Shown here one piece after another: positions 810 through 12,529 of a stretch of 64,000 nucleotides of DNA. The stretch spans positions 1-64,000 of the forward strand of contig CACJCK010000001.1 in the NCBI GenBank assembly GCA_902591865.1, read 5' to 3'. The translations under genes and the position numbers were made by a program. The stretch comes from an uncultured Prochlorococcus sp. (GTDB lineage Bacteria > Cyanobacteriota > Cyanobacteriia > PCC-6307 > Cyanobiaceae). The notes under the pieces are model-generated. The model saw nothing but the letters and a program-made list of their open reading frames with translations, searched no databases and was not told where the DNA came from. Position 1 is the first letter of the stretch. Each line of letters starts with the position of its first letter.

Positions 810-1031
810 TTGAAATTATTCTCTGCTTATTTGATCTTAATGATTAGTATTTACATCACTGGATGTTATTCAAAAATTAATACTTGTTCTGAATGGAAAT
901 TAGGCAATATTTCTTATAAATTAGCATCAAATAAATTAGGTTTAAAAAATGGGGTAGATGAATATGGTTTAGATGGTGTTCAATATCTTAATGTATCAAA
1001 ATTTTGTGGTGGCTTAGATTTTTCAAAATAA
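810..1031 (+). CDS. Small putative lipoprotein
   Basis: 73 residues from a TTG start, the only plausible start in frame. The N-terminus (MKLFSAYLILMISIYITGC) has a basic residue, a hydrophobic core and a lipobox-like ITGC, so Cys19 is the expected lipidated residue. The mature part is about 55 residues with two more cysteines and no domain I recognise. It is probably attached to a membrane facing the periplasm or lumen. The gene lies between copies A and B of the 40-bp element. Confidence 0.55.
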   Translation: MKLFSAYLILMISIYITGCYSKINTCSEWKLGNISYKLASNKLGLKNGVDEYGLDGVQYLNVSKFCGGLDFSK

Positions 1032-1035
1032 ACCA

Positions 1036-1058
1036 AATGCTTACTACTTGCACCGCTA
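1036..1058 (+). pseudogene. Second signal-peptide relic
   Basis: TGCTTACTACTTGCACCGCTA repeats, with one changed base at the left end, the sequence encoding KRLLLAPL in the relic at 137-178. Here the in-frame ATG is missing and the frame closes within two codons. It lies directly before copy B of the 40-bp element. Confidence 0.4.
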
Positions 1059-1070
1059 TATTAAATACTT

Positions 1071-1110
1071 TTGACAGTCGATCTAAAATAAGGGGCAATT
1101 ATCTCCTTTT
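1071..1110 (+). repeat. 40-bp intergenic element, copy B
   Basis: Begins TTGACAGTCGATCTAAAATA and ends TCTCCTTTT. It matches copy A (669-708) at about 34 of 40 positions and inverted copy C (4628-4667) at about 34 of 40. The hairpin half is imperfect here. It could carry promoter (TTGACA with an A/T-rich block) or terminator function; the sequence does not settle which. Confidence 0.7.
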
Positions 1111-1174
1111 AATTAGCTATCTTTAAAAAGATATTCGAAATTTTAAAAGCAAATAAAAAAATATTTCTATAAAG

Positions 1175-1852
1175 ATGGAATTACCAGAAGCAATTCTTTT
1201 TGATTTAGATGGGGTATTACTAGATACAGAACCATTACTAGCTAATGCCTGGTATGAAACCGCAAAAGAATATAATTACTATTTATCAAACGATAAATTA
1301 CTAGAATTAAAAGGAAGAAGAAGAATAGATTGCGCAAAAATAGTTTTCAAATGGATAAATGAAGAAATCACAATAGAAGAATTACTCATTACTCAAAAGT
1401 TAAAAGTAGATAAAGTACTTACTAAAGCAAAACCTTTTAAAGGAGCAATAGAATTAATCAAATTTTGTATAAATACAAAATTACCTATTGCACTAGTAAC
1501 AAGTAGTAGTAGTGAAAGTTTTAAAATAAAAAGCTCTGCAAATCCCTGGTTAAATTTATTCAATACAAAGGTTCTTGGAGATGATAAATTCATTTCTGAT
1601 GGCAAGCCTTCGCCTGATCCTTATTTGAGAGCATTAAAAATATTGGATGTAGATCCAAGGAAATCATGGGTTATAGAAGACTCATATGCAGGATCTATCT
1701 CAGGACTTAAAGCGGAATGTAATTTAATGTTTTTTTCAAAAGATATTGAAATACTAAATAAATTAATAAATGAATTTAACCAAGAAAAGATTCAAAAAAT
1801 TAATGATTTATCAGAAATTATTTATTATTTAAAGTTATATAAAGGATTTTAA
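1175..1852 (+). CDS. HAD-superfamily hydrolase (beta-phosphoglucomutase-like subfamily)
   Basis: 225 residues with the HAD motifs in order. Motif I is FDLDGVLLDTE at 9-19 (nucleophile Asp10, acid/base Asp12). Motif II is VTSSSS near 110. The motif III lysine lies in DGKPSPDPYLRAL near 147-159. Motif IV is VIEDSYAGSISGL near 171. The cap between motifs I and II is alpha-helical, as in phosphoglycolate phosphatases and beta-phosphoglucomutases. A small phosphorylated metabolite is the likely substrate, but it cannot be named. Cytoplasmic, with no obvious operon partner. Confidence 0.85.
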   Translation: MELPEAILFDLDGVLLDTEPLLANAWYETAKEYNYYLSNDKLLELKGRRRIDCAKIVFKWINEEITIEELLITQKLKVDKVLTKAKPFKGAIELIKFCINTKLPIALVTSSSSESFKIKSSANPWLNLFNTKVLGDDKFISDGKPSPDPYLRALKILDVDPRKSWVIEDSYAGSISGLKAECNLMFFSKDIEILNKLINEFNQEKIQKINDLSEIIYYLKLYKGF

Positions 1853-1853
1853 A

Positions 1854-1937
1854 TCAATCTAATAAATTTGCTAATTCTTCTAATATTTTTTCCTTAGGTA
1901 ATTCTTCCAACAAGACAAATAAATGAAACGCTTGATA
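1854..1937 (-). pseudogene. Possible C-terminal protein fragment without a start
   Basis: On the minus strand a frame open from an upstream TAA reads a helical, Leu/Glu-rich tail (LLEELPKEKILEELANLLD) ending in TGA at 1856-1854. The composition looks protein-coding, but there is no ATG; only TTG codons could start it. It is either a remnant or a very short unrecognised gene. Confidence 0.25.
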
Positions 1938-1962
1938 TTAACTCGACCCAAAGACTAAATTA

Positions 1963-2082
1963 ATGGAATTTTTAAAGGAGCTTTGGCAGAATCATTATGA
2001 CCCATACCATGCAATTCTTGGTATAAGTGGAGTAATAGAATTGTTGGTAATTTATAATCAATTACTCAATAAATATCATTAA
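1963..2082 (+). CDS. Small hypothetical protein, 39 aa
   Basis: ATG at 1963 to TAA at 2080. The N-terminal half is aromatic and polar (MEFLKELWQNHYDPYH); the middle (AILGISGVIELLVIYNQLL) could be a short membrane helix. TTTAAAGGAG inside the gene is not a ribosome site for it, and no good Shine-Dalgarno precedes the ATG. Unrecognised. Confidence 0.4.
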   Translation: MEFLKELWQNHYDPYHAILGISGVIELLVIYNQLLNKYH

Positions 2083-2099
2083 TCACAAACCATCGTGGA

Positions 2100-2252
2100 T
2101 TAAGCAGCATCAGATATATTGTTATTCGTATCTTCAATCTTTTCAATCTCTTTAATCATTTCCTCTATCCATAAAGTATTATCTTCTGATCTCTTTTTAA
2201 AATAAGAAATCTTAAGTTGATTGATTTCTAATGTCTCATAATCTCCACTCAT
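2100..2252 (-). CDS. Small hypothetical protein, 50 aa, charged helix
   Basis: Starts at ATG 2252 and ends at TAA 2100. It is a soluble, strongly charged sequence (Glu/Lys/Asp) with a heptad-like stretch TLWIEEMIKEIEKIED, so a coiled coil is likely. The style resembles the 46-aa protein at 32527-32667, but I see no clear homology. Function unknown. Confidence 0.5.
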   Translation of the reverse strand: MSGDYETLEINQLKISYFKKRSEDNTLWIEEMIKEIEKIEDTNNNISDAA

Positions 2253-2409
2253 AAAATTTTCCTAAATTTATAACCATTTAAATTTTAGTTAGTTTATTTA
2301 TTAGTTTTACTAAGGGGAAAATAAGAAAAAATTAATTTATGGTTAATATGAACTAAGACAAATTAAATATTATTTATAAAAATATCGGAAACACTTAATT
2401 TACCTAATG

Positions 2410-2643
2410 CTACCCACCAGTACAGAAACGAACCGCATCAGCTGTTGGCGAACCAGTCGCTTTCATTTCTTCAACACATTCATTAAAGAACTTTGATTCT
2501 TTTTTTAATGAGCAAAAGCTTAGTGCAATAGCTACTAAGGCAACAGCTGATACAACTGCTGATCCTAGTTGTATCACTCCGTAAGCAAGCATAGCTTTAT
2601 TCTTTTTAAAATCTTTTTTTGTATCTTTCTTTTTATCAGACAT
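2410..2643 (-). CDS. Small single-helix membrane protein with Cys-containing tail
   Basis: 77 residues: a very basic start (SDKKKDTKKDFKKNK), a membrane helix at about 20-42 (VIQLGSAVVSAVALVAIALSF), then a tail with three cysteines ending RFCTGG. Two of the cysteines may pair outside the membrane. The basic N-terminus predicts a cytoplasmic start. The family is not recognised. Confidence 0.6.
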   Translation of the reverse strand: MSDKKKDTKKDFKKNKAMLAYGVIQLGSAVVSAVALVAIALSFCSLKKESKFFNECVEEMKATGSPTADAVRFCTGG

Positions 2644-2940
2644 TTTTTTTTACATTCTTGGCTTATTATATTCAACTAAATAACTAGACTCCAGATAAAG
2701 AAAAGGTAAGTTATAAAATTAAATGTTAAATGTATATTGTTATTCCCATAACCAAATTCTGAAGAGGAAAAGCTCAAACTAAAAAGTAGAAAAAGTGATG
2801 AGAAAATTAATTAAAAATTTATTTGAAATTAATTATTTTGTGATTGGTTTTTGAAAATAATTTAATTTCTTAAAGATAACGTTTTCTTAAATTATTTTTA
2901 AATTTCATATGACATAGATATAGATAATTGAATAATCTTA

Positions 2941-3342
2941 ATGCATATTGATGATGCAGTGTTTTTAGAGGATTTGTGCCCTAAGCTCAAATTAAGATTT
3001 TGGCGAAAGTCTATTCATACATTTACGAGCAAAAGATGCATATATTGCGGAAAACCTTCAGAATCTATTGATCATATATTGCCACGAAGTAAAGGAGGTT
3101 TAAACTTAACAGAAAATTGTGTTCCAGCTTGTCTTTCATGCAATGGAGACAAATCAGATGAGAATGTTTTTGATTGGTATAGAAAGAAAAAATTTTATGA
3201 TCCTAGAAGAGCTATGGCTATTAGAGCATGGTTAGATGGAGACTTAATATTATCTATAAGATTATTACAATGGGCTAATCAAGAAATTAAGGAAAATAAA
3301 GCAAATTTTGAACAAGAAGAATCAAATCTAGAAGCTGCTTAA
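2941..3342 (+). CDS. HNH endonuclease family protein
   Basis: 133 residues. A zinc-ribbon HNH core begins with CIYCGK at 34-39, continues with IDHILPRSKGG at 44-54 (the His-containing metal-binding element), then ENC and CLSCNGDKSD near 65-75, giving the CxxC...CxxC pair plus the N and H of the motif. A helical C-terminal part follows (YDPRRAMAIRAWLDGD). HNH proteins of this size cut or nick DNA, either in mobile elements or in housekeeping roles. No intron, intein or terminase gene is near, so its role is open. Confidence 0.85.
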   Translation: MHIDDAVFLEDLCPKLKLRFWRKSIHTFTSKRCIYCGKPSESIDHILPRSKGGLNLTENCVPACLSCNGDKSDENVFDWYRKKKFYDPRRAMAIRAWLDGDLILSIRLLQWANQEIKENKANFEQEESNLEAA

Positions 3343-3360
3343 CTATCAAAGATAATTAAG

Positions 3361-3483
3361 TTAATGGAATATATTAAATATAAATAAGAGAAAAACAGAA
3401 AAAACTTTTTCAGGAAAGCTTTGTAGTTTTTGACTAGAATAATCCATTACTTCTGCTATTTCCAAATCAGAGAGATAAAACAA
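3361..3483 (-). CDS. Possible 40-aa protein, TTG start
   Basis: A frame from TTG 3483 to TAA 3361 encodes an acidic front (YLSDLEIAEVMDYSSQ) followed by a hydrophobic tail rich in Phe/Leu. It lies in the gap between the HNH gene and the YFAEPN gene. The start is weak and the frame could be a remnant. Confidence 0.25.
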   Translation of the reverse strand: MFYLSDLEIAEVMDYSSQKLQSFPEKVFSVFLLFIFNIFH

Positions 3484-3512
3484 TAAAGGAATGCATTAAC
3501 TCTGCAAGGAAA

Positions 3513-3713
3513 TTAGAAAAAAGAAAAAATCATCATTTGTTTATATTTTGAGGAACTAATAACTAAATTTAAACTTGATATATTATGGAATTTTTTATGC
3601 GTAAAATTACAAAATTCATTTTCATCTGAATAGTTAATTAAATCAACTGCATTAATATTTGAATCAAACCACAGGTCATATTCTATATAATTTGGCTCTG
3701 CAAAATAAGTCAT
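3513..3713 (-). CDS. YFAEPN-family small protein, copy 1
   Basis: 66 residues beginning MTYFAEPNYIEYDLWFDSN. It is a clear paralogue of the plus-strand protein at 14889-15071: both share YFAEPN-IEYD-WFD-NI-VDL-NYSDE-EF, H-KFH and the NL-I-SS ending. It is acidic and aromatic with no membrane segment. A DUF3764 gene lies on the same strand upstream (4340-4624), and the second copy also has a DUF3764 neighbour, so the two families seem to have been duplicated together. Function unknown. The last 10 residues differ from copy 2. Confidence 0.65.
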   Translation of the reverse strand: MTYFAEPNYIEYDLWFDSNINAVDLINYSDENEFCNFTHKKFHNISSLNLVISSSKYKQMMIFSFF

Positions 3714-4035
3714 ACCAAATTTATTTCAAAAAGAAAAAGCTTCTCTATTTCGTGTGAGGAGAATATAGAAGCGACCTAAGCTTAAAAGATTTAATGAACT
3801 CTTCTTTAAGAATTAAATAAGATACGAATAAGAAAAAATAAAATATTATTTTAATTTAAAAATATGATTAGTTTACTTGCTGCATACTATAAAAAACTGC
3901 ATCCAAGACCACTGCTTTGCTTTAGAAGAATTAAATGCATTATTAGAATCACATTTTAAAGTTATAAGCAAGTTATGAATTGTTTAAAAGAAAAAAAAAG
4001 AAACAAAAAGAAAGGAATTTTTGCGCTGCTGAAAA
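3714..4035. other. Gene-poor gap with an imperfect hairpin
   Basis: About 320 bases with no convincing gene. Arms GCTTCTCTATT (3739-3749) and AATATAGAAGC (3762-3772) pair with one mismatch and sit just upstream of the minus-strand YFAEPN gene, so they may lie in its leader or promoter. A 31-codon plus-strand frame at 3864 (MISLLAAYYKKLHPRP) has no support. Confidence 0.4.
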
Positions 4036-4347
4036 TTACACGTTTACAGTTATGGATGGTTTAGATGAGGCTACAAAACTAAGAAGAGCAATTAAAACAT
4101 TTTCTGCAATTTTTAAAGCCTCAGCCGGCTCTTTATCCTTGTTTATTCCAAATACCAAGGTACAGGCACCAACACCCAATGCTCTTGCAATACAATCATC
4201 ATTTCCAATTTCATCACAGGGTAATCTAAAAGACTCTTCAATCTTTTTCAGATCATAACCATTCTCATCTTCTGGAAAGCCAGCTTGAGCGTTAAAAGGA
4301 AATAAAAATAATATTGCAGCAAGAAGTAGGCGTTTAAAATTATTCAG
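4036..4347 (-). CDS. Small secreted protein with lost or non-standard start codon
   Basis: An intact minus-strand frame runs from CTG 4347 to TAA 4036 (103 codons) and has no ATG, GTG or TTG at its front. The N-terminus NNFKRLLLAAILFLFPFNAQAG is a textbook signal peptide with cleavage after AQA. The mature part has three cysteines (PCDEIGNDDCIARALGVGAC), suggesting a periplasmic fold. The codons for FKRLLL align with ATGAAACGCTTACTACTT of the relic at 137, so the ancestral ATG appears to have become TTT. Translation, if any, would start at CTG, overlapping the stop of the DUF3764 gene. Confidence 0.5.
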   Translation of the reverse strand: MNNFKRLLLAAILFLFPFNAQAGFPEDENGYDLKKIEESFRLPCDEIGNDDCIARALGVGACTLVFGINKDKEPAEALKIAENVLIALLSFVASSKPSITVNV

Positions 4348-4624
4348 AAATCCAGCGGTTAATTATTGTTCCTTCATAAATATGACCAGATGCTTCAACT
4401 ATTGGTTTAGTTTCTGGATTAACAAAGATGTCGTAACAAGTATTTACTGGTCCTTGAAACATAACAGTTGCTCTTTGGGGGTCTCCCAATGATTTGCCAA
4501 TATAAAAAGTTTTTACTCCCATCTCTTTAAACATGGCCTGTTGTTCAGGAGCATTCATATGAGCCTCATATTCCTCAAAAGTATTGCTTAATTTGAAATC
4601 TAAAACAGTTGTTTCAATTGACAT
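4340..4624 (-). CDS. DUF3764 family protein, copy 1
   Basis: 94 residues matching the DUF3764 pattern known from marine picocyanobacteria: an N-terminal TTVLDFKLSNTFEEYEAHM strand-helix, a central IGKSLGDPQRATVMFQG, and the tail SGHIYEGTIINRWISE. It is small, soluble and alpha/beta, possibly in the dimeric ferredoxin-like class; function unknown. The paralogue at 14464-14748 shares the framework but differs in the central surface. The inverted 40-bp element (4628-4667) forms its promoter region, with TTGACA at its far end. Its 3' end overlaps the next secreted reading frame. Confidence 0.8.
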   Translation of the reverse strand: MSIETTVLDFKLSNTFEEYEAHMNAPEQQAMFKEMGVKTFYIGKSLGDPQRATVMFQGPVNTCYDIFVNPETKPIVEASGHIYEGTIINRWISE

Positions 4625-4627
4625 AAA

Positions 4628-4667
4628 AAAAGGAGCGAATTACCCTTTATTCTAGTTCGACTGTCAA
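4628..4667 (-). repeat. 40-bp intergenic element, copy C (inverted)
   Basis: Read on the minus strand it begins TTGACAGTCGAACTAGAATA and ends CGCTCCTTTT, four bases before the ATG of DUF3764 copy 1. This position suggests that the element can act as promoter and leader DNA here, unlike copy A, where it looks like a terminator. Confidence 0.65.
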
Positions 4668-4756
4668 TTTAAAAAATCACCTTTAGGTGTTGAAAAACAA
4701 ACTTAGTATTTTCTTAAAATCTTAAAAATCTAGTATTGAGATATAAGTTAAAAAAA

Positions 4757-4897
4757 ATGGAATTAGTCCAAAAAGAAGAGACTTCATTAGGTTTGGAATC
4801 ATTCGATGTTTTAGGGTTTAATTCCCAAGAGCAACTTGAATTAGAAATTTCAAAACTAATTAAAATTAGACCTGAATTAGAAACTAGTAGGGAGTAA
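4757..4897 (+). CDS. Small acidic hypothetical protein, 46 aa
   Basis: ATG 4757 to TAA 4897. Acidic, helical composition (FNSQEQLELEISKLIKIRPELET), plausible as a soluble coiled-coil peptide. A minus-strand frame covers the same bases (it starts MKRLLHEPL at 4929); only one of the two is likely real, and the plus-strand composition looks more natural. Confidence 0.35.
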   Translation: MELVQKEETSLGLESFDVLGFNSQEQLELEISKLIKIRPELETSRE

Positions 4898-4902
4898 ATT
4901 GA

Positions 4903-4935
4903 TAGCGGTTCATGAAGTAAACGTTTCATTTAATA
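4903..4935 (-). pseudogene. Third signal-peptide relic
   Basis: On the minus strand, TAAATGAAACGTTTACTTCA and then TGAACCGCTA is a diverged copy of the ATGAAACGCTTACTACTTGCACC relic at 137-165. The frame runs on as MKRLLHEPLSIY but then becomes low-complexity sequence antisense to another frame, so I treat it as a relic. Confidence 0.3.
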
Positions 4936-5000
4936 TTCTCTATCCTTTAATTATTAGTTTTGATTTAATTCTTCCAAGTCACTTCTCGATACCCATTAAA

Positions 5001-5032
5001 AAAGTCAGCCAGTATTCCTACTAGCTGACTTT
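5001..5032 (-). terminator. Terminator hairpin after the minus-strand hli pair
   Basis: AAAGTCAGC (5001-5009) pairs perfectly with GCTGACTTT (5024-5032) around a 14-base loop. It stands 24 bases beyond the stop of the 35-aa gene that follows hli, as expected for an intrinsic terminator of that two-gene unit, though the following T-run is short. Confidence 0.6.
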
Positions 5033-5055
5033 CATGACGATATACGTTTTGAAAA

Positions 5056-5163
5056 CTATACGAATGTATTTGTTGTTGTGATACTTAAAACAACTGCAAC
5101 AAAGAATATGTAAGGAACCACCTTAAGGGGTACATATCCCTGTCTTTTAGATATAAAATCCAT
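5056..5163 (-). CDS. MDFISK-family 35-aa membrane peptide, copy 1
   Basis: Encodes MDFISKRQGYVPLKVVPYIF and a hydrophobic continuation ending TTNTFV: a short polar front followed by one membrane helix. It starts directly after the hli stop codon (TAA then ATG), so the two are almost certainly co-transcribed and translationally coupled. A close paralogue lies at 29046-29156 before a carotenoid-type oxidoreductase gene. A small thylakoid partner of Hli or photosystem proteins is a reasonable guess, nothing more. Confidence 0.7.
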   Translation of the reverse strand: MDFISKRQGYVPLKVVPYIFFVAVVLSITTTNTFV

Positions 5164-5298
5164 TTATACAAACCCAGGAATAATTTGTCCTGTTGTTAGA
5201 TATGCGCCAATAAGGGCAATAAAGCCGATCATTGCAAATCTACCATTGAGCTTCTCAGCTACAATTTTTTCCTTCTCAACTGTTTTTGTTTCGTTCAT
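5164..5298 (-). CDS. hli: High-light-inducible protein (Hli), 44 aa
   Basis: Single-helix chlorophyll-binding-type protein. The Hli/ELIP motif EKLNGRFAMIGF at 15-26 contains the chlorophyll-ligand pattern ExxNxR, followed by the rest of the helix and the tail TTGQIIPGFV. That tail marks the multicopy Prochlorococcus Hli class also found in cyanophages (established knowledge). Such proteins sit in thylakoid membranes and help dissipate excess energy. First gene of a two-gene minus-strand unit. Confidence 0.92.
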   Translation of the reverse strand: MNETKTVEKEKIVAEKLNGRFAMIGFIALIGAYLTTGQIIPGFV

Positions 5299-5424
5299 TT
5301 GCTTAGTTGGTTGTTTGGCTAAGACGCTTCCAAATGCAATCTTTAAATAAATCTAATGATTGCAAATTATAAGTGTGAGTATAATTACTTACTCTCATAC
5401 CCCCTATAAGCTGAACTTATTAAG

Positions 5425-5574
5425 CTATCTTCCCACCTTTGCATATTCGAGATTAAAAAAATATTTTTCACCATCATCGTTGCTGTCATCGTCGTCATCA
5501 TTGAAAGAGGCAATCAAGACATAAATACCTCCCAACCCAAGGGTCATCGATAAGTAGAGAATAGGATCAGTCAT
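5425..5574 (-). CDS. Small membrane protein with acidic Asp-rich tail, 49 aa
   Basis: Starts MTDPILYLSMTLGLGGIYVL, a single membrane helix, followed by an acidic run (NDDDDDSNDDGE) and a short KYFFNLEYAKVGR end. The architecture suggests a thylakoid or plasma-membrane anchor exposing a strongly negative loop. It is transcribed away from the plus-strand hli genes that begin 218 bases upstream. Not recognised as a named photosystem subunit. Confidence 0.6.
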   Translation of the reverse strand: MTDPILYLSMTLGLGGIYVLIASFNDDDDDSNDDGEKYFFNLEYAKVGR

Positions 5575-5791
5575 TATTTAATTTTGATCAATCAAAAACA
5601 AATCCGGGGGAGCTTTTTCATATCTCTATGATCTTTTAATTATTAGCTTCAAATTTAAAAATTAATTACTTACTGTTACGTATCTGTATCATAATTGCCT
5701 TATTAGTGCCGAATTACACATATTTTTAACCTTTTTCTTTACATTAGTTAATATAAATGTTATGTTTATTAACAATTAAATTATTTAACTA

Positions 5792-6001
5792 ATGACTAAT
5801 TCTTCATACATAACTACAGAATCAGGCGGAAGGCAAAATATTTTCCCAACTGAGCCTCGTCCTTATGTTGATCAATCTGTTTCTTACGATGGATATCCTC
5901 AAAACGCAGAAAAAGTTAATGGTCGTTGGGCAATGATTGGTTTAGTTGCACTTTTGGGAGCTTATGTAACTACAGGTCAAATAATTCCAGGTATTTTTTA
6001 A
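5792..6001 (+). CDS. hli: High-light-inducible protein (Hli), 69 aa
   Basis: A polar, proline-containing N-terminal extension of about 37 residues precedes the Hli core EKVNGRWAMIGLVALLGAY and the tail TTGQIIPGIF. Glu/Asn/Arg of the chlorophyll-binding motif are present. Expected in thylakoids under high light or other stress. The TAA stop shares its last A with the ATG of the next hli gene, indicating a translationally coupled operon with the genes at 6001, 6262 and perhaps 6499. The 220-bp upstream region is A/T-rich, with a TTTACATTAGTTAA-like direct repeat that loosely resembles a cyanobacterial high-light element. Confidence 0.93.
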   Translation: MTNSSYITTESGGRQNIFPTEPRPYVDQSVSYDGYPQNAEKVNGRWAMIGLVALLGAYVTTGQIIPGIF

Positions 6002-6261
6002 TGTCTCCTCTTTCAGGCTTTTTAGCTGTAATTGTATTCTTCACAGCTATCCTCGTTGCTTATCTAACCAAGCAATTTCAAAACGAAAATTTAAACTATC
6101 TAATTTCAAATCCAATGACAAATTCAAACCCTAAAGTAAAAACAATCGAAAAAGAAAAAGTTGTTGCAGAAACTCTCAATGGCAGATTCGCAATGCTTGG
6201 ATTAATTGCTGCTGTCGGAGCTTACTTAACAACAGGCCAAATAATACCAGGTTTTGTATAA
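6001..6261 (+). CDS. hli: Two-segment Hli protein with an extra N-terminal membrane helix
   Basis: From the ATG at 6001 the protein is 86 residues. Residues 2-23 (SPLSGFLAVIVFFTAILVAYLT) form a membrane helix. A polar linker follows, then a standard Hli core EKVVAETLNGRFAMLGLIAA with the tail TTGQIIPGFV. The start at 6001 overlaps the previous stop by one base, which supports it. A shorter 48-aa Hli could start at an internal ATG (6115), so the extra helix may be an optional domain or a fused small gene. Confidence 0.85.
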   Translation: MSPLSGFLAVIVFFTAILVAYLTKQFQNENLNYLISNPMTNSNPKVKTIEKEKVVAETLNGRFAMLGLIAAVGAYLTTGQIIPGFV

Positions 6262-6489
6262 ATGCTTTTACTTTCTGTACCATTCTACGATTTTCCATCT
6301 TCGCCCATACTAATAATTGGCGCGATAGGGATTGTTGTAGCACTGGCTGTATTTTTTCTAGCTTACAAAAAGTACTTTAATTCTCCATTTAACAAAGAAC
6401 TTCAATTAAAGAAAAAAGCTCTATTGAAGGAGAAAACAGAACTAAACAAAAAACTTGAGAAAATAGAGCAAGATTTAAAAAATTTATAG
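6262..6489 (+). CDS. Membrane helix plus coiled-coil protein, 75 aa
   Basis: ATG directly follows the hli stop. A hydrophobic helix at about 15-37 (PILIIGAIGIVVALAVFFLAY) is followed by a Lys/Glu heptad-rich stretch from residue 48 to the end, a likely coiled coil. Third gene of the hli operon; possibly an assembly or anchoring partner for Hli proteins, inferred only from position. Confidence 0.7.
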   Translation: MLLLSVPFYDFPSSPILIIGAIGIVVALAVFFLAYKKYFNSPFNKELQLKKKALLKEKTELNKKLEKIEQDLKNL

Positions 6490-6498
6490 TAAAAACCA

Positions 6499-6588
6499 AT
6501 GAATATAGACATTTTCTTAATCTCTTTCTTTACTTATCTCTTAGTACCAGTAGTAATGATCGCTAAGGGGAAAAAAGCAACTAACTAA
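6499..6588 (+). CDS. Very small membrane peptide, 29 aa
   Basis: MNIDIFLISFFTYLLVPVVM followed by IAKGKKATN: one membrane helix with a basic KGK tail. It starts 9 bases after the preceding stop, so it may be the last gene of the hli operon. A peptide of the same design (28 aa, ending LMILKGKN) is encoded at 13103-13189. Confidence 0.5.
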   Translation: MNIDIFLISFFTYLLVPVVMIAKGKKATN

Positions 6589-6684
6589 GAAAGATTTAGA
6601 CTCCCAAAAATAAGAATTTAAACTCTATTCAATACTTATAAAGTCGTTATAGAGTTTTTATAAAAGTTTAAGGAGGGTAATCTT

Positions 6685-6843
6685 ATGACCAACCTCGCTA
6701 TCGAGCTACTGGTCTTGACTGTAGTTTTAGTAAATTTTGGAGCAATCCTTACGGCTAATATCTATTTAAAATCAGTAAAGGAATTTAAACGGAATAGATT
6801 ATTTTGCAGTAAGTCTTTCAGCAATCCCTATTGCATTATCTGA
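6685..6843 (+). CDS. Small membrane protein, 52 aa, strong ribosome site
   Basis: The ATG is preceded by AGGAGGG at 6671-6677, an unusually strong Shine-Dalgarno for this A/T-rich genome. The first 27 residues form a hydrophobic helix (AIELLVLTVVLVNFGAILTANIY), then comes a basic stretch (KSVKEFKRNR) and a tail with two Cys. A palindrome GAGCAAAA-T-TTTTGCTC at 6842-6858 begins at the stop codon and could act as terminator. Function unknown. Confidence 0.5.
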   Translation: MTNLAIELLVLTVVLVNFGAILTANIYLKSVKEFKRNRLFCSKSFSNPYCII

Positions 6844-6864
6844 GCAAAATTTTTGCTCCTAATT

Positions 6865-6950
6865 TAATAGGTCTTTAGCGATCGACATAAAACGAGAATT
6901 TGCTAATCCTTGGCAACTTCGGAGGAGTGGGTCGCTTTTCATTTTGTAAA
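6865..6950 (+). ncRNA. Candidate small RNA with CUUCGGAGGAGUGGG motif
   Basis: The stretch from AATAGGTCTTTAGCGATCGA to GTCGCTTTTCATTTTG has conspicuously higher G+C than its surroundings and contains CTTGGCAACTTCGGAGGAG followed by TGGGTCGCTTTT. GCGA near 6879 can pair with TCGC near 6932, closing a stem before a T-rich end. The GGAGGAGUGGG core reminds me of the Yfr2-type RNAs described in marine cyanobacteria, but I cannot confirm family membership. Strand and ends are approximate. Confidence 0.4.
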
Positions 6951-6973
6951 AATTTGATAATAATAATTAAAGT

Positions 6974-7660
6974 TTAAGCAACCCTAAATTCCCGTTTCAT
7001 ATTCATTTCAGGCAGGTCATTCATTGAGTCTCTCCATTCTTGGGCCCACTCACTTTGACTATGTTTATAAATTCTAATTAGTTCATCTACAGAGGAATCA
7101 TGATAATCAACTCTCAGATCTAAAAGAGGAAAGCCTAGTTCTCCACTAACTTTTAGAGCGCTTGAAGTTGAACGGACGCTTCGTTTATCTCCACCTACAC
7201 TTTCTCCTGCATTAAGAGCATCAAGTAGTCTTTTCCCTAATTTAATATTTGGATCACTTTGTTTGAAAACATCAGCCATCACCTCAAGAACTTCAATATT
7301 CTCTAAAAAATTGCCAGCTACAGAAAAGTTTTCTCCACTAATATGTCCGCTTGTCTGAAAACATTCTTGACCTGTCCAGCATGCGCTTCTCCCATACTTA
7401 TCAATTAAGTGTACCTGTCTTTTTTCCCTTCCAAAATCTTCTTTAATTAAATCTTCCAAAACAATTTTCGAATCAGAGCAAGATTGGAGTGACTCAAGAC
7501 TTCTTATTCCTAAATAAGGATTAGTTTGCCCTTGAGTTGCAACAGCACCAACCTGTGATCTAACGAATGAAACTGTTGAACCAACAGCTATATGGCAAGA
7601 AGAAACTGCAACACCAAATCTATTTTTTAAAGGATCAAAACCAATAATTGAAAATGTCAT
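6974..7660 (-). CDS. DUF1028 protein (Ntn-hydrolase-like)
   Basis: 228 residues covering the DUF1028 domain: the start TFSIIGFDPLKNRFGVAVSS, then AVGSTVSFVRSQVGAVATQGQTNP at about 26-49, and the later GNFLENIEVLEVM and SLRV-like segments. Structures in this family resemble Ntn hydrolases with Thr2 as the N-terminal nucleophile after Met removal. Members often lie in purine, pyrimidine or hydantoin degradation clusters, but no reaction is established. Its ATG directly follows the stop of the M20 carbamoylase (no gap), so the two are coupled. Likely last gene of the minus-strand cassette. Confidence 0.85.
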   Translation of the reverse strand: MTFSIIGFDPLKNRFGVAVSSCHIAVGSTVSFVRSQVGAVATQGQTNPYLGIRSLESLQSCSDSKIVLEDLIKEDFGREKRQVHLIDKYGRSACWTGQECFQTSGHISGENFSVAGNFLENIEVLEVMADVFKQSDPNIKLGKRLLDALNAGESVGGDKRSVRSTSSALKVSGELGFPLLDLRVDYHDSSVDELIRIYKHSQSEWAQEWRDSMNDLPEMNMKREFRVA

Positions 7661-8938
7661 TTATATCATTAGAGGCTTGTCTAAAAAATTCTTATCGATG
7701 GAAAATATTGTATTTAATAAAACCTCAATACCATTAGCACATTGATCAAGAGAAGTATATTCCTTATAGGAATGACTCAGACCATTTCTGCTCGGGACAA
7801 AGATCATAACCATAGGACAGATCCTTCCTATTTCTTGTGAGTCATGACTTGCTTTGCTTGGTAAGATTCCAGTTTTAAATCCCAACTTTTCTGATTCATG
7901 AAATGAAGAGCTCACTAATTTAGGACATGACTTAGTGGGGATCACTTCAAATTGAGGTTCTATCTGTACTACGCATCCAGTACCTTCTTGAATTTCTGAG
8001 CATAGATTCTCAATTCTTAAGCTCATTTTTCCAATCACATTTTCATCCAGATCTCTCATATCAATTGTGAATACCGCCTCTCCAGGAATAACATTTGCCG
8101 CGTTGGGATGTAATTTCAATTTACCAACAGTTGCGACTGCACTTTCAGAAGTAGTTTTAGCTATCTGTTCAATACCAACAATAATTTTAGAGGCGGCCAA
8201 AAGTGCGTCATTTCTATTTGACATCGGGGTAGTCCCTGCATGATTTGCCTGACCTTTAACCCTAACGGTTATTCTTTTTTGACCTACTATTCCATTAACA
8301 ATTCCGATATCCAAACCACCATCTTCAAGGACCTTTCCCTGTTCAACATGTAATTCAAGAAAAGCGAATATATCTTTTTTACTTCTTGCCGCACTTTTAA
8401 TCTCAAGCCAATTTCCACCAATCCGAGAAAGATTATCAATTATTGAGCAAGAATTACTTGTAACAAAATCCTCTTCTTTAACAGATAAATTACCTGTAAA
8501 GCCTTTACAACCAATCATTGTCGATTCTTCATCAGCAAAGACAATTATTTCAAATGGTCTATTTAATTTAATGTCATTTTCCTGAAGAAAAAAAGCAATT
8601 TCAATTCCTGCAATCACTCCTAAAGTTCCGTCATACTTACCTCCCTTTGGAACAGTGTCGAGATGAGATCCGGTAACAATGGGAGGTAGATTATTATCAT
8701 ACCCATCTAATCTTGCAATAATATTTCCTGCAGTATCAATTCTTATTTTCAAACCTAATTCCTTAAGGGTTTTCATAAAAAAATTTCTTGCATATATATC
8801 TTCATCAGAAAAACCTCTTCTTGAAACAGAACCCTTCTCAGAAGCTCCGATTGAAGAAAAAGAATTTATCAAGTCTTGGATTCTCTCCCTATTTATTACC
8901 TGTGACTCTAGGATGTTTAACCCCGCGCTATAACTCAT
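7661..8938 (-). CDS. M20-family N-carbamoyl amino-acid hydrolase (carbamoylase / allantoate amidohydrolase type)
   Basis: 425 residues with the zinc motifs of the hydantoinase/carbamoylase subfamily. GSHLDTVPKGGKYDGTLGV at about 91-109 supplies His and the bridging Asp, ADEESTMIGCKGFTG near 136-150 the catalytic and ligand Glu, ELHVEQG near 195 a His, and SRNGLSHSYKEYT near 390 the last His. The dimerisation insert contains the typical GQKRITVRVKGQANHAGTTPM. The family removes a carbamoyl or ureido group from N-carbamoyl amino acids, beta-ureidopropionate or allantoate. The exact substrate cannot be told. It follows the asparagine-synthetase-like gene by 93 bases. Confidence 0.9.
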   Translation of the reverse strand: MSYSAGLNILESQVINRERIQDLINSFSSIGASEKGSVSRRGFSDEDIYARNFFMKTLKELGLKIRIDTAGNIIARLDGYDNNLPPIVTGSHLDTVPKGGKYDGTLGVIAGIEIAFFLQENDIKLNRPFEIIVFADEESTMIGCKGFTGNLSVKEEDFVTSNSCSIIDNLSRIGGNWLEIKSAARSKKDIFAFLELHVEQGKVLEDGGLDIGIVNGIVGQKRITVRVKGQANHAGTTPMSNRNDALLAASKIIVGIEQIAKTTSESAVATVGKLKLHPNAANVIPGEAVFTIDMRDLDENVIGKMSLRIENLCSEIQEGTGCVVQIEPQFEVIPTKSCPKLVSSSFHESEKLGFKTGILPSKASHDSQEIGRICPMVMIFVPSRNGLSHSYKEYTSLDQCANGIEVLLNTIFSIDKNFLDKPLMI

Positions 8939-9031
8939 ACTTCAATTACTTAAACCTACTTAAGGTCTCTTATTTTTAAAATAAAACCTGTATTGGTTTA
9001 CACCTTTTCAGAAATTAATTTAAAAACGAAT

Positions 9032-11044
9032 TCAAACTTTCCAACCCAAATTATCAGCCATCTTTTGAGCCTTATCTGGGATATCCTCAATTATAAAAAT
9101 CTTATATAAGATCTGAACGCTTAAAAGATGATTGATTATTGCATCCAGCTGTACTTTTTCTGAGGCATCAAGCTCTGAACTAAAAAATTTATTCAGCAAA
9201 TTATTTACTTCTGTTTCATCCAAGATTCCAAATTCTCTAATCCTCTCAGGACTTAAGAATTCATTAACTATTTCCTGCATAGAACTTAAATTATCTTTAT
9301 CTGCATGGGAAGGGGGAGCCATGAAAGGAAATTTTTCACGTTTATATAATGATTCAGACAGCAATCCTGACATGGCTTCTCTTAAAACATACTTCTCGAC
9401 ATTGTCTTTAATCCTTAATTCAGGGGGGACAGCAACGGCAGCTTCAGCTAGGTGATGATCTAAAAATGCAGGCCTGGCTTCCATTGAATTTGACATATCC
9501 ACTCTATCTCCACCCCATGTGAGAATTTGGCCCTCAAGCATAGTCTTCATCCAAACATACTGAGCCTGATCAATTGCGTATCTATCTTCCAACTGTTTAA
9601 TATCAAGTTCTCCAAAAATTGCTGCCCCGGGGTCATAATCTTCCGTTATCTCTTTATATTTACTTGAGACTAGACTTTTTGCATAAGTTTCACATGCAAG
9701 CCAAGGTTGAAGGCAACTTGGCGTAAATCCTAAATATTCCTTGAAAGATTGATTACTAATCTCTTCATTAGCTAGCATCGCGCCCTTGAAAATATCATTT
9801 GAATTTTCCAGATTTTCTTTGAGATTCTCAGATTCTGAATTAGAAATTCCCACCCCATAGGTATACATATCTTTTCTAAAAGCGGGATAGCCACCAAACA
9901 ATTCATCTGAACCCTCTCCTGTCATAACAACCTTATAATCGAGCTCATTCACTCTTTTACTCATAAGGTATTTGGCAATTGCGAGGGTGTTATAAATAGA
10001 TCTTTCAGTAAACCATAGAACCTTTTCAAAATTCCCATACAGATCATCTCCATTTATTTTTAAAATCTCATGATCTGCATTTGTGGCGACAGCCATCTCT
10101 TTTGCTATCGAAGTTTCATCATATCTTTCATCACTGAAACCAATCGTGAATGCCTTTACTGATTTTTGACTTATGGCAGAAGCCAATCCCAAAATTGAGC
10201 AACTATCAATTCCGCCGGACAAATAACAGCCGACAGGAACATCAGCGACCATTCTTAGTTCAACTGCTCTCAATAATTCTTTTCTAATATTTTCAATAAA
10301 ATATTTTTCACTTTTATCTCTTTCATAAGTATTTTTTTTAGGGAAATTTATATCCCAGAATTTTTCCTCTGTTATCTCAAATTTATTATTTACTCTTTTG
10401 AACTTGAGGATATATCCGGGCTTAACTTGTTTAACACCTGCGAATGCTGTGGAGCCAGGTACCATTACCTGCATCAGTTGATGAACCAGTCCTTCACCCG
10501 TAAATTTCCTTTCAACTGATGGATGGGCAAATAATACTTTTAATTCCGAGCCAAATATTATGGAATCATCGGTCTCAATCCAGTATTGAGGTTTAATCCC
10601 AAAACGATCTCTTACAAGAAAAAGACAATCCTGTTCTGCATCAAACAATGAAAAGGCGAATTCTCCTCGCAGATAAGATAATGATTCATCAATGCCATAT
10701 TTCTCATAAAGCCTAAGCAATATTTCCGAATCACTTTTTGAAGAAAAGCGTACGCCCTGGGCAACAAGATCAGCCCTGATTCTCTGAAAGTCATAAAATT
10801 CACCATTATGCGCCATCAGAATATGATTTTCGGCACCTCCGACAAAAGGCTGTCTGGCTCGATTTTCATTTAAATCTATTATTGATAATCTCGCATGACA
10901 GAATCCTACAGAAGCATCATCTGATAATTTATATCCGAAACCGTCCGGTCCACGATGGCTTTGAATAGCCGCCATATTCACAAGAATCTGAGGCTCAACA
11001 GATTTATCTTTTGATTTATTAAAAACCCCGCCTATTCCACACAT
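9032..11044 (-). CDS. asnB: Glutamine-dependent asparagine-synthetase-like amidotransferase
   Basis: 670 residues, longer than E. coli AsnB (about 554). MCGIGGVF supplies the class II glutaminase nucleophile Cys2, with SHRGPDGFGY, AHNGEFYDF and a SDSEILLRLYEKYG block following, so ammonia is drawn from glutamine. The synthetase half has the ATP-pyrophosphatase loop GCYLSGGIDSCSI near 260 and GEGSDELFGGYPAF near 360. Such enzymes adenylate a carboxylate and amidate it. Substrates include aspartate and, in natural-product clusters, other acids. The stop of the transcarbamoylase-like gene lies only 4 bases upstream. A substrate other than aspartate is inferred from context alone. Confidence 0.9.
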   Translation of the reverse strand: MCGIGGVFNKSKDKSVEPQILVNMAAIQSHRGPDGFGYKLSDDASVGFCHARLSIIDLNENRARQPFVGGAENHILMAHNGEFYDFQRIRADLVAQGVRFSSKSDSEILLRLYEKYGIDESLSYLRGEFAFSLFDAEQDCLFLVRDRFGIKPQYWIETDDSIIFGSELKVLFAHPSVERKFTGEGLVHQLMQVMVPGSTAFAGVKQVKPGYILKFKRVNNKFEITEEKFWDINFPKKNTYERDKSEKYFIENIRKELLRAVELRMVADVPVGCYLSGGIDSCSILGLASAISQKSVKAFTIGFSDERYDETSIAKEMAVATNADHEILKINGDDLYGNFEKVLWFTERSIYNTLAIAKYLMSKRVNELDYKVVMTGEGSDELFGGYPAFRKDMYTYGVGISNSESENLKENLENSNDIFKGAMLANEEISNQSFKEYLGFTPSCLQPWLACETYAKSLVSSKYKEITEDYDPGAAIFGELDIKQLEDRYAIDQAQYVWMKTMLEGQILTWGGDRVDMSNSMEARPAFLDHHLAEAAVAVPPELRIKDNVEKYVLREAMSGLLSESLYKREKFPFMAPPSHADKDNLSSMQEIVNEFLSPERIREFGILDETEVNNLLNKFFSSELDASEKVQLDAIINHLLSVQILYKIFIIEDIPDKAQKMADNLGWKV

Positions 11045-11048
11045 CTAT

Positions 11049-12161
11049 TTAAACGACATCCATCACTCTTGTTGTTCTATCCATCAGACAGGTAAGTAAT
11101 GCCATTCTTACAAACACCGCTCCTCTTGACTGAGCAAAATACCAATTTTTTGCGGTCTGATCCAGTGATGTTGACAATTCAGGGCCACGAGCAAGTGGAT
11201 GCAAAATTATGGAATCTTTTTTAAATGGCAACTCACTGTGCAATTTAAATGAACTTCCATGAACCTCATAATTTTCTCCCACCCATGCAATTGCATTTAT
11301 ATAGGTAACGTCCAGGGAAGGCAATATTTTTTGCATATCAGTCTCCAGCTCAATCTTTAGATCAGATTCAATAAGTTGTTCCAGCTGGCCTTCATCAAAT
11401 AGATCACTCTTATCAATGGATTTATCATCGTAAATTACGATAATTTTTTTTATCAAATATGAAAACTTGCAGAATAATTTCAGAAGAGATCTGACTGTTC
11501 TCATACGTGATGGAACTCCGATGATACCAATCGTTATTTTTTCACTATCATCAATTGATTTGTTAACCAGATGCGGTCTCCATTTAAAAATCGTATAAAG
11601 ATCAGCCATCGCCTGAGTGGGATGTTCATCGATTCCGTTACCGGCATTGATTATTGGAATTCTCAATGATTTTGTCATTTCAAAGATCGCCTCATTGTCA
11701 CTTTCTCTGAGGACAACGCAGTCACCGTAATTATTAAACATATGAGCAATATCCAGATGGGATTCTCCCTTGGCAATTCCAGTGGAACTTTTATCGGTGA
11801 TATTTATTGAATCGCCACCCAGCCTGTGCCATGCGCTGTCAAACGATAACCTTGTTCTGGTGCTTGGTTCATAGAAGGCATTTATGAGTATCTTTCCCTT
11901 GAGGGGACTGTTATGGGAAATATATCTGTTTGGATTACTTTCAAATTTTGCCGCCAGCCTGAAAAGTTGTAGAAGACAATCTTTACTAAACGGGTCTATG
12001 GAAATTACGTGCCTGTCCAATAACTCATATAGAAATTCCGCTCTTTCCTTTATTTCAGATAATAGATTCTGAGGATGAGTGGAGCCGTAAATATCAGGTC
12101 CTATTCTTGAAAAAGAAAATGATTTTTCCTTATGTAAGGTTTTTACTATATGTGATCCCAA
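11049..12161 (-). CDS. Aspartate/ornithine-carbamoyltransferase-family enzyme with altered acceptor site
   Basis: 370 residues; E. coli PyrB has about 310. The carbamoyl-phosphate site is intact: FYEPSTRTRLSFDSAWHRLGG (the STRT loop), the TGIAKGES lysine loop, CVVLRES (Arg105 of PyrB), NGIDEHPTQAMADLYTI (His134, Gln137) and GVPSRMRTVRSL (Arg167). The later element that reads MTRVQ in E. coli PyrB (Arg229 and Gln231, which hold aspartate) is INAIA here, and HPLPR is HPLAR. It should therefore carbamoylate an amine other than aspartate. An N-terminal extension of about 50 residues is extra. Same-strand cassette with the asnB-like, M20 and DUF1028 genes. Confidence 0.88.
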   Translation of the reverse strand: MGSHIVKTLHKEKSFSFSRIGPDIYGSTHPQNLLSEIKERAEFLYELLDRHVISIDPFSKDCLLQLFRLAAKFESNPNRYISHNSPLKGKILINAFYEPSTRTRLSFDSAWHRLGGDSINITDKSSTGIAKGESHLDIAHMFNNYGDCVVLRESDNEAIFEMTKSLRIPIINAGNGIDEHPTQAMADLYTIFKWRPHLVNKSIDDSEKITIGIIGVPSRMRTVRSLLKLFCKFSYLIKKIIVIYDDKSIDKSDLFDEGQLEQLIESDLKIELETDMQKILPSLDVTYINAIAWVGENYEVHGSSFKLHSELPFKKDSIILHPLARGPELSTSLDQTAKNWYFAQSRGAVFVRMALLTCLMDRTTRVMDVV

Positions 12162-12316
12162 AATATTAAAGTTCCAAAATTTGTACTGATAACTACATTT
12201 TTATAAACAAAAATCAATAAATACAAGTAATTTCAAAGAAAAATATCAGAAAAAGTCCAATGATTATATGTTTCTGTATAAAAGTAATACAGGAAATTAT
12301 TAATTCAGCTCAGAAT

Positions 12317-12529
12317 TTAACAGCATGAACAATCGCCTTCAGATTCAGGATGAGAAGATTCAATAGCATCTGCGATATCTCTGAGCATGTCAGCCACATA
12401 CCCCGGAGGACATTGAAACTTAGCTATATATTCGACACTCTTCTTTGCCATTTCTGTATATGCGGGAAGGATCAGATCATCAATCTGATTCTGAGTCGGT
12501 TTCCATCTCGCCTCGCAACTGTCGGTCAT
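12317..12529 (-). CDS. Small cassette protein with Cys-rich C-terminus, 70 aa
   Basis: A soluble sequence with a helical middle (QIDDLILPAYTEMAKKSVEYI), FQCPPGYVADMLRDIADAIES, and a short tail ending GDCSCC. Six cysteines-or-pairs stand out: Cys5, one in FQCPP and three in the last four residues plus one before them in the tail region. It is the first gene of the minus-strand cassette, 155 bases ahead of the transcarbamoylase-like gene, and visibly richer in G+C than flanking DNA. It could be a metal-binding accessory or a peptide substrate; nothing in the sequence decides. Unrecognised family. Confidence 0.6.
   Translation of the reverse strand: MTDSCEARWKPTQNQIDDLILPAYTEMAKKSVEYIAKFQCPPGYVADMLRDIADAIESSHPESEGDCSCC

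Follow-up and report, generated by a model that had tools for sequence, protein, structure and literature searches.

Bacterial pseudogenes can form by short-repeat deletion and by loss of the start codon. The reading frame at positions 4036–4362 resembles such pseudogenes in its truncation at a short repeat, its lost start and a frame that would be open because the inactivation is recent. It differs from them in that one copy of the repeat sits in another decayed gene. The frame is in the window, which here means the whole 64,000 nt stretch that was analysed. The window makes up the first part of contig C1 of a draft Prochlorococcus genome (1.28 Mb, 57 contigs, 72% complete). The frame is very probably a truncated pseudogene, inactivated recently and carrying two lesions, derived from an unnamed gene termed X (Table 1).

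Table 1. Coordinates of features at and around the frame, in window positions
Feature	Position	Strand	Remark
Flanking segment A	3447–4023		Present in many other genomes
3' tail of DUF1330 gene (relic), 64 bp	4029–4092	plus	100% identical in G217, 89–94% in L090–L094
Antisense DNA of the DUF1330 relic	4036–4081	minus	14 non-homologous residues SFVASSKPSITVNV (4080–4039) and stop (4038–4036)
Junction J2, 11 bp AGAAGAGCAAT (on plus strand)	4082–4092		Common to X and the DUF1330 3' end; BLASTN
N-terminal part of gene X	4093–4338	minus	Cys 41, 49 and 59 kept
Signal peptide of X	~4282–4338	minus	Assigned by eye
TTT where the TTG start was lost	4336–4338	minus	One G missing relative to 12/12 aligned relatives with the same DUF3764
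Open DUF3764 gene of 94 aa, the upstream partner of broken X	4340–4624	minus	PF12594, E 8.9e-33
CTG noted by the sequence-only reading	4345–4347	minus	In the DUF3764 3' end

The frame is on the minus strand and is free of stops from 4362 to 4036, stop to stop, with 108 codons. It encodes FKRLLLAAILFLFPFNAQA/G and three Cys. The sequence-only reading described it as an intact secreted frame with a signal peptide, three Cys and a near-cognate CTG, but without ATG, GTG or TTG. The signal peptide, the three Cys and the CTG (4347–4345, where the interval of that reading starts) are all present. Codons 1–61 contain no ATG, GTG or TTG, i.e., there is none up to the end of the signal peptide, and the lack of a start is thus true of the start region. 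Taken literally it does not hold, as there are TTG codons at positions 62 and 69 and the last codon is GTG; these are too far in for the signal peptide.

At E ≤ 0.01 the frame has matches in 127 of the 266 genomes that represent the genus (its own genome included), and the best non-self E value is 6.3e-50; the similarity is therefore far beyond chance. The window copy is a homologue of family X, with E 1.1e-48 and 92% identity across residues 2–87. Homology covers residues 2–86 of 167, the N-terminal half, and its boundary is at residues 86–87. The frame is thus not intact, since full-length relatives have 163–167 aa and a fourth Cys at position 118. The same reading had aligned the frame with a relic family, but no other match in the window is better than E 1.4. 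The rest of this genome's assembly has no further match to the frame at E ≤ 1 or to full-length X at E ≤ 10.

A total of 64 loci were fetched, of which 58 (L031–L088) hold X and the remaining six match the tail only. The named relatives are Prochlorococcus records; most of them are uncultured isolates and one, MIT 9302, is a cultured strain. X is full length (163–167 aa) in 48 of the 58 loci, with ATG, GTG or TTG within 6 nt of the expected place. The start codons of these 48 are mainly not ATG (GTG 23, ATG 13, TTG 12). Each of the 48 has exactly four Cys, and these fall throughout at the aligned positions 41, 49, 59 and 118 in L031 numbering. This first score of full length required a start codon. 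When the count was rerun without the start filter, an open frame of at least 150 codons was present in 50 of 58 loci. L087 is cut by a contig end; without it, a canonical start within 6 nt is present in 48 of 49 long open frames. X is broken in 9 of 57 loci, again without L087. L057 has ATA at the X start together with an internal stop; start loss thus occurs elsewhere in the family, there beside other damage. L082, the exception among the 49, has a long open X frame that is frameshifted in the signal-peptide region and lacks a canonical start at that place; it is a second start-region loss, independent of that in the window.

X starts close to an upstream stop codon, between 4 nt before it and 5 nt after it, in 45 of the 48 full-length loci. 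The upstream gene is DUF3764-like, by reading, in 36 of 48. The two main DUF3764 types have Pfam E values of 1.9e-31 and 5.4e-33, another partner is a DUF3804 protein (E 2.5e-50), and two more partner types have no Pfam family above its cut-off. The partners also include small proteins with signal peptides. X has the look of a coupled gene whose upstream partner is swapped at the start codon. It is present in 35 of 400 sampled genomes of the taxonomic family, own genome included; 34 of these are within the genus, and the one match outside it is weak and C-terminal. X is almost confined to Prochlorococcus.

Searches of X against Pfam gave DUF5751 as best match (E 0.081, below its cut-off), there was no match in NCBIfam, and the best PHROGs match (E 0.048) is not significant. 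A phage-borne origin of X was considered and rejected: full-length X has no match in 50,697 phage records, and in viral contigs no relative of X was confirmed. The viral contigs also hold no exact copy of the J2 junction. An AlphaFold2 model of relative L031 is weak, with a best mean pLDDT of 64 and values of 39–43 for the other four models, and is mainly helical. In this weak model the junction would fall near the end of helix 71–88, and helices 93–96, 105–130 and 141–165 would be lost. Foldseek of the model against PDB gave no match at E ≤ 0.001. In view of the weak model and of this search result, no claim about structure is made. Export of X is suggested by the signal peptide, which was identified by eye.

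Twelve relatives, picked for having the same DUF3764 gene upstream, were aligned at the start of X. All 12 read TTTTGAAACG and the window reads TTTTAAACG, which is one G short. Residue 1 of X is TTT in the window copy and not ATG, GTG or TTG. As the relatives with the same DUF3764 all carry TTG and the G, the ancestral start of this allele is TTG. Comparison of the start with other strains, a check proposed by the sequence-only reading, thus gave TTG and a missing G where that reading had supposed an ATG changed to TTT. Its suggestion of a very recent start loss is supported in kind, with the loss of one base from a TTG start. In the relatives the TTG is 2 nt after the DUF3764 stop, except in L034 and L050, where the distance is 5 nt. 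Two codons upstream of the TTG, 10 of the 12 have a TGA that closes the X frame; L034 and L050 have TTA in place of this TGA, with an X frame that extends a few codons upstream. Upstream of the one-base deletion the frame is shifted, and it consequently runs back into DUF3764 and gains the CTG. Only because of the deletion is this CTG in the frame of X. The overlap with the DUF3764 end, also pointed out earlier, does exist; however, it results from the same deletion and is not a feature of the gene, since relatives start X 2–5 nt after the stop. The DUF3764 gene itself has 93–97% nt identity in the five fetched loci that hold that gene.

Beyond J2 approximately 80 C-terminal codons of X are missing. 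The missing half is nowhere else in this genome's 72% complete assembly. The window copy is shorter than 163–167 aa and is without the fourth Cys (118), which sits in the missing half. BLASTN matches switch at this point: positions 3301–4092 are 99.5% identical to L089 and positions 4082–4677 are 94% identical to L031. The last 18 residues of the frame match other loci, L089–L094. In MIT 9302 (L093) the tail site lies antisense to a DUF1330 gene (PF07045, E 1.4e-26), at its 3' end. The 11 bp sequence occurs in the window at this one place, and the mean in shuffled sequences is 0.14. Among the matches listed, no match from another genome spans J2 (266 genomes); few candidates were scored per genome, and a spanning match would rank at the top. 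Elsewhere in the window, positions 229–594 hold a DUF1330 paralogue (PF07045, E 3.7e-13) with an N-terminal hydrophobic stretch.

A second join, J1 (approximately 4024–4028), connects segment A with the DUF1330 tail and is found, among the matches listed, in this genome and G217 only. J1 is a second rearrangement scar. As it is common to two genomes, such joins do arise naturally in the region.

The flanks are each contiguous in other genomes. The left flank (955–4092) is contiguous in G217 with 98.3% identity, X and DUF3764 (4082–4677) are contiguous in relatives with 92–95%, and DUF3764 and the right flank (4337–6494) are contiguous in G254 with 91%. Segment A and X have the order and orientation of the window in five of five fetched contigs, which were chosen because A and X are both listed on one contig, and are 2.9, 3.3, 3.6, 6.6 and 9.3 kb apart. 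This is the arrangement that a deletion would need. G123 also has A and X as in the window, about 1.2 kb apart. A partial A is about 31 kb from X and in the opposite orientation in G142, X is about 66 kb off on the other side of A in G041, and the two are far apart in G033. The window has a block to the right of DUF3764 that in G217 and G106 is inverted with respect to the DUF1330 tail. The event behind the truncation may therefore be more complex than a single deletion. No relative was found in which the DUF1330 tail and X stand in direct order, and the arrangement before the deletion is for this reason a reconstruction. To the right of DUF3764 (4600–12412), a block with genes that we take to be hli-like and a block at 6966–12412, presumably with amidohydrolase-, asnB- and pyrB-like genes, recur in G142, G254, G044 and G127, though not in one constant order. 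In G217 the DUF1330 tail is next to a gene of 495 aa, presumably for a sugar-phosphate-synthase-like protein, and this gene is not in the assembly analysed here. If it were a core gene its absence would point to a chimera, but it has a match at E ≤ 1e-80 in only one of 87 genomes that are at least 90% complete, so the absence is uninformative.

In a comparison with 14 relatives, three nonsynonymous changes (G24D, W61L and D79E) and two synonymous ones are private to the window copy, the junction codon not being counted. Of 57 scored loci, 54 have W at position 61 and 54 have D at position 79; small indels may account for two of the W61 exceptions. G24 is less fixed, with G in 52 of 57. The private changes fit relaxed constraint, with substitution counts too small for proof. 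In all, the window copy shares with family X residues 2–86, the signal peptide, Cys 41, 49 and 59 and a DUF3764 gene immediately upstream. It differs from the family by the absence of a start codon, of approximately 80 C-terminal residues and of Cys118, by the changed W61 and D79 and by the antisense tail.

Relative to intact relatives, and with the assembly trusted, the copy has two disabling lesions, the start deletion and the 3' truncation, where at least one characterizes a pseudogene. Under the proposed course of events, an accessory X of 167 aa with a signal peptide and four Cys would once have been translated from a TTG just past the DUF3764 stop. This TTG would have been lost through the one-base deletion. 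The C-terminal half would have been lost by deletion or other illegitimate recombination at the 11 bp repeat shared with the DUF1330 3' end. The frame would still be open because few mutations have accumulated since inactivation. We infer that both lesions are in the living genome, as well as their order, and that the remnant gives no useful product. The outcome that the sequence-only reading named as evidence against its proposal, an accumulation of stops in close relatives, was found in part: the family has the nine broken loci, but most of the close relatives that share the DUF3764 allele are intact.

The main rival for the 3' junction is that J2 is a chimera of whole-genome amplification or assembly, in which case the real X is perhaps full length, with or without the start lesion. 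The draft resembles a single-cell genome, as many of the relatives are by record name, and J2 is private to this genome among the matches listed. The 11 bp overlap is inside the range of 2–21 nt reported for MDA chimeras in PMC1855051, although overlaps are mainly 5–8 nt in PMC4595205. In PMC4595205 approximately 29–30% of chimeras join same-strand segments, a weaker inverted bias (about 70%) than that in PMC1855051, where 406 of 475 joins are inverted and just 11 of 475 are direct joins within 10 kb. The two flanks of J2 are in the same orientation within 10 kb in relatives, which would place a chimera here in this small direct class. In addition, no other part of the assembly contains the missing half of X, and the start lesion is about 245 bp from J2 and is left unexplained by a chimera. 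A chimera is thus considered unlikely, and natural deletion in a variable region is the most likely origin of the 3' junction. A different artefact would be a sequencing error at the start, where the real codon would be TTG as in the relatives. The single base is missing between a run of T and a run of A, as might be expected of such an error, but the 3' truncation and the private changes would remain without explanation, and this is improbable.

A further rival reading is that the frame is translated from the CTG or another non-AUG codon, coupled to termination of DUF3764, to give a truncated exported peptide. The signal peptide and frame remain open, and coupling is plausible for the family given the close spacing in 45 of 48 full-length relatives. 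However, the CTG falls outside the homologous protein, and full-length relatives use ATG, GTG or TTG (48 of 49). The copy has lost half of the protein and one of the four Cys, and near-invariant residues are changed. A non-canonical start is not conserved either, since relatives with the same DUF3764 allele have TTG. Non-AUG initiation was rejected on the basis of these TTG starts and of the position of the CTG, and is judged very improbable. Coupled non-AUG initiation of an intact secreted protein, the other option of the sequence-only reading, is not supported, as approximately 80 of 167 residues are missing and the tail is antisense DNA of another gene. Reinitiation at a non-AUG codon past the DUF3764 stop, which would yield a chimeric exported peptide with an antisense DUF1330 tail, is still less credible.

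Interpretation of the frame as a truncated pseudogene of X removes one candidate for non-AUG initiation. A very recent pseudogene can pass for an intact secreted protein when one genome alone is read. X represents a nearly genus-specific protein family for which no curated name was found; it is usually directly behind DUF3764 and is broken in several Prochlorococcus genomes.
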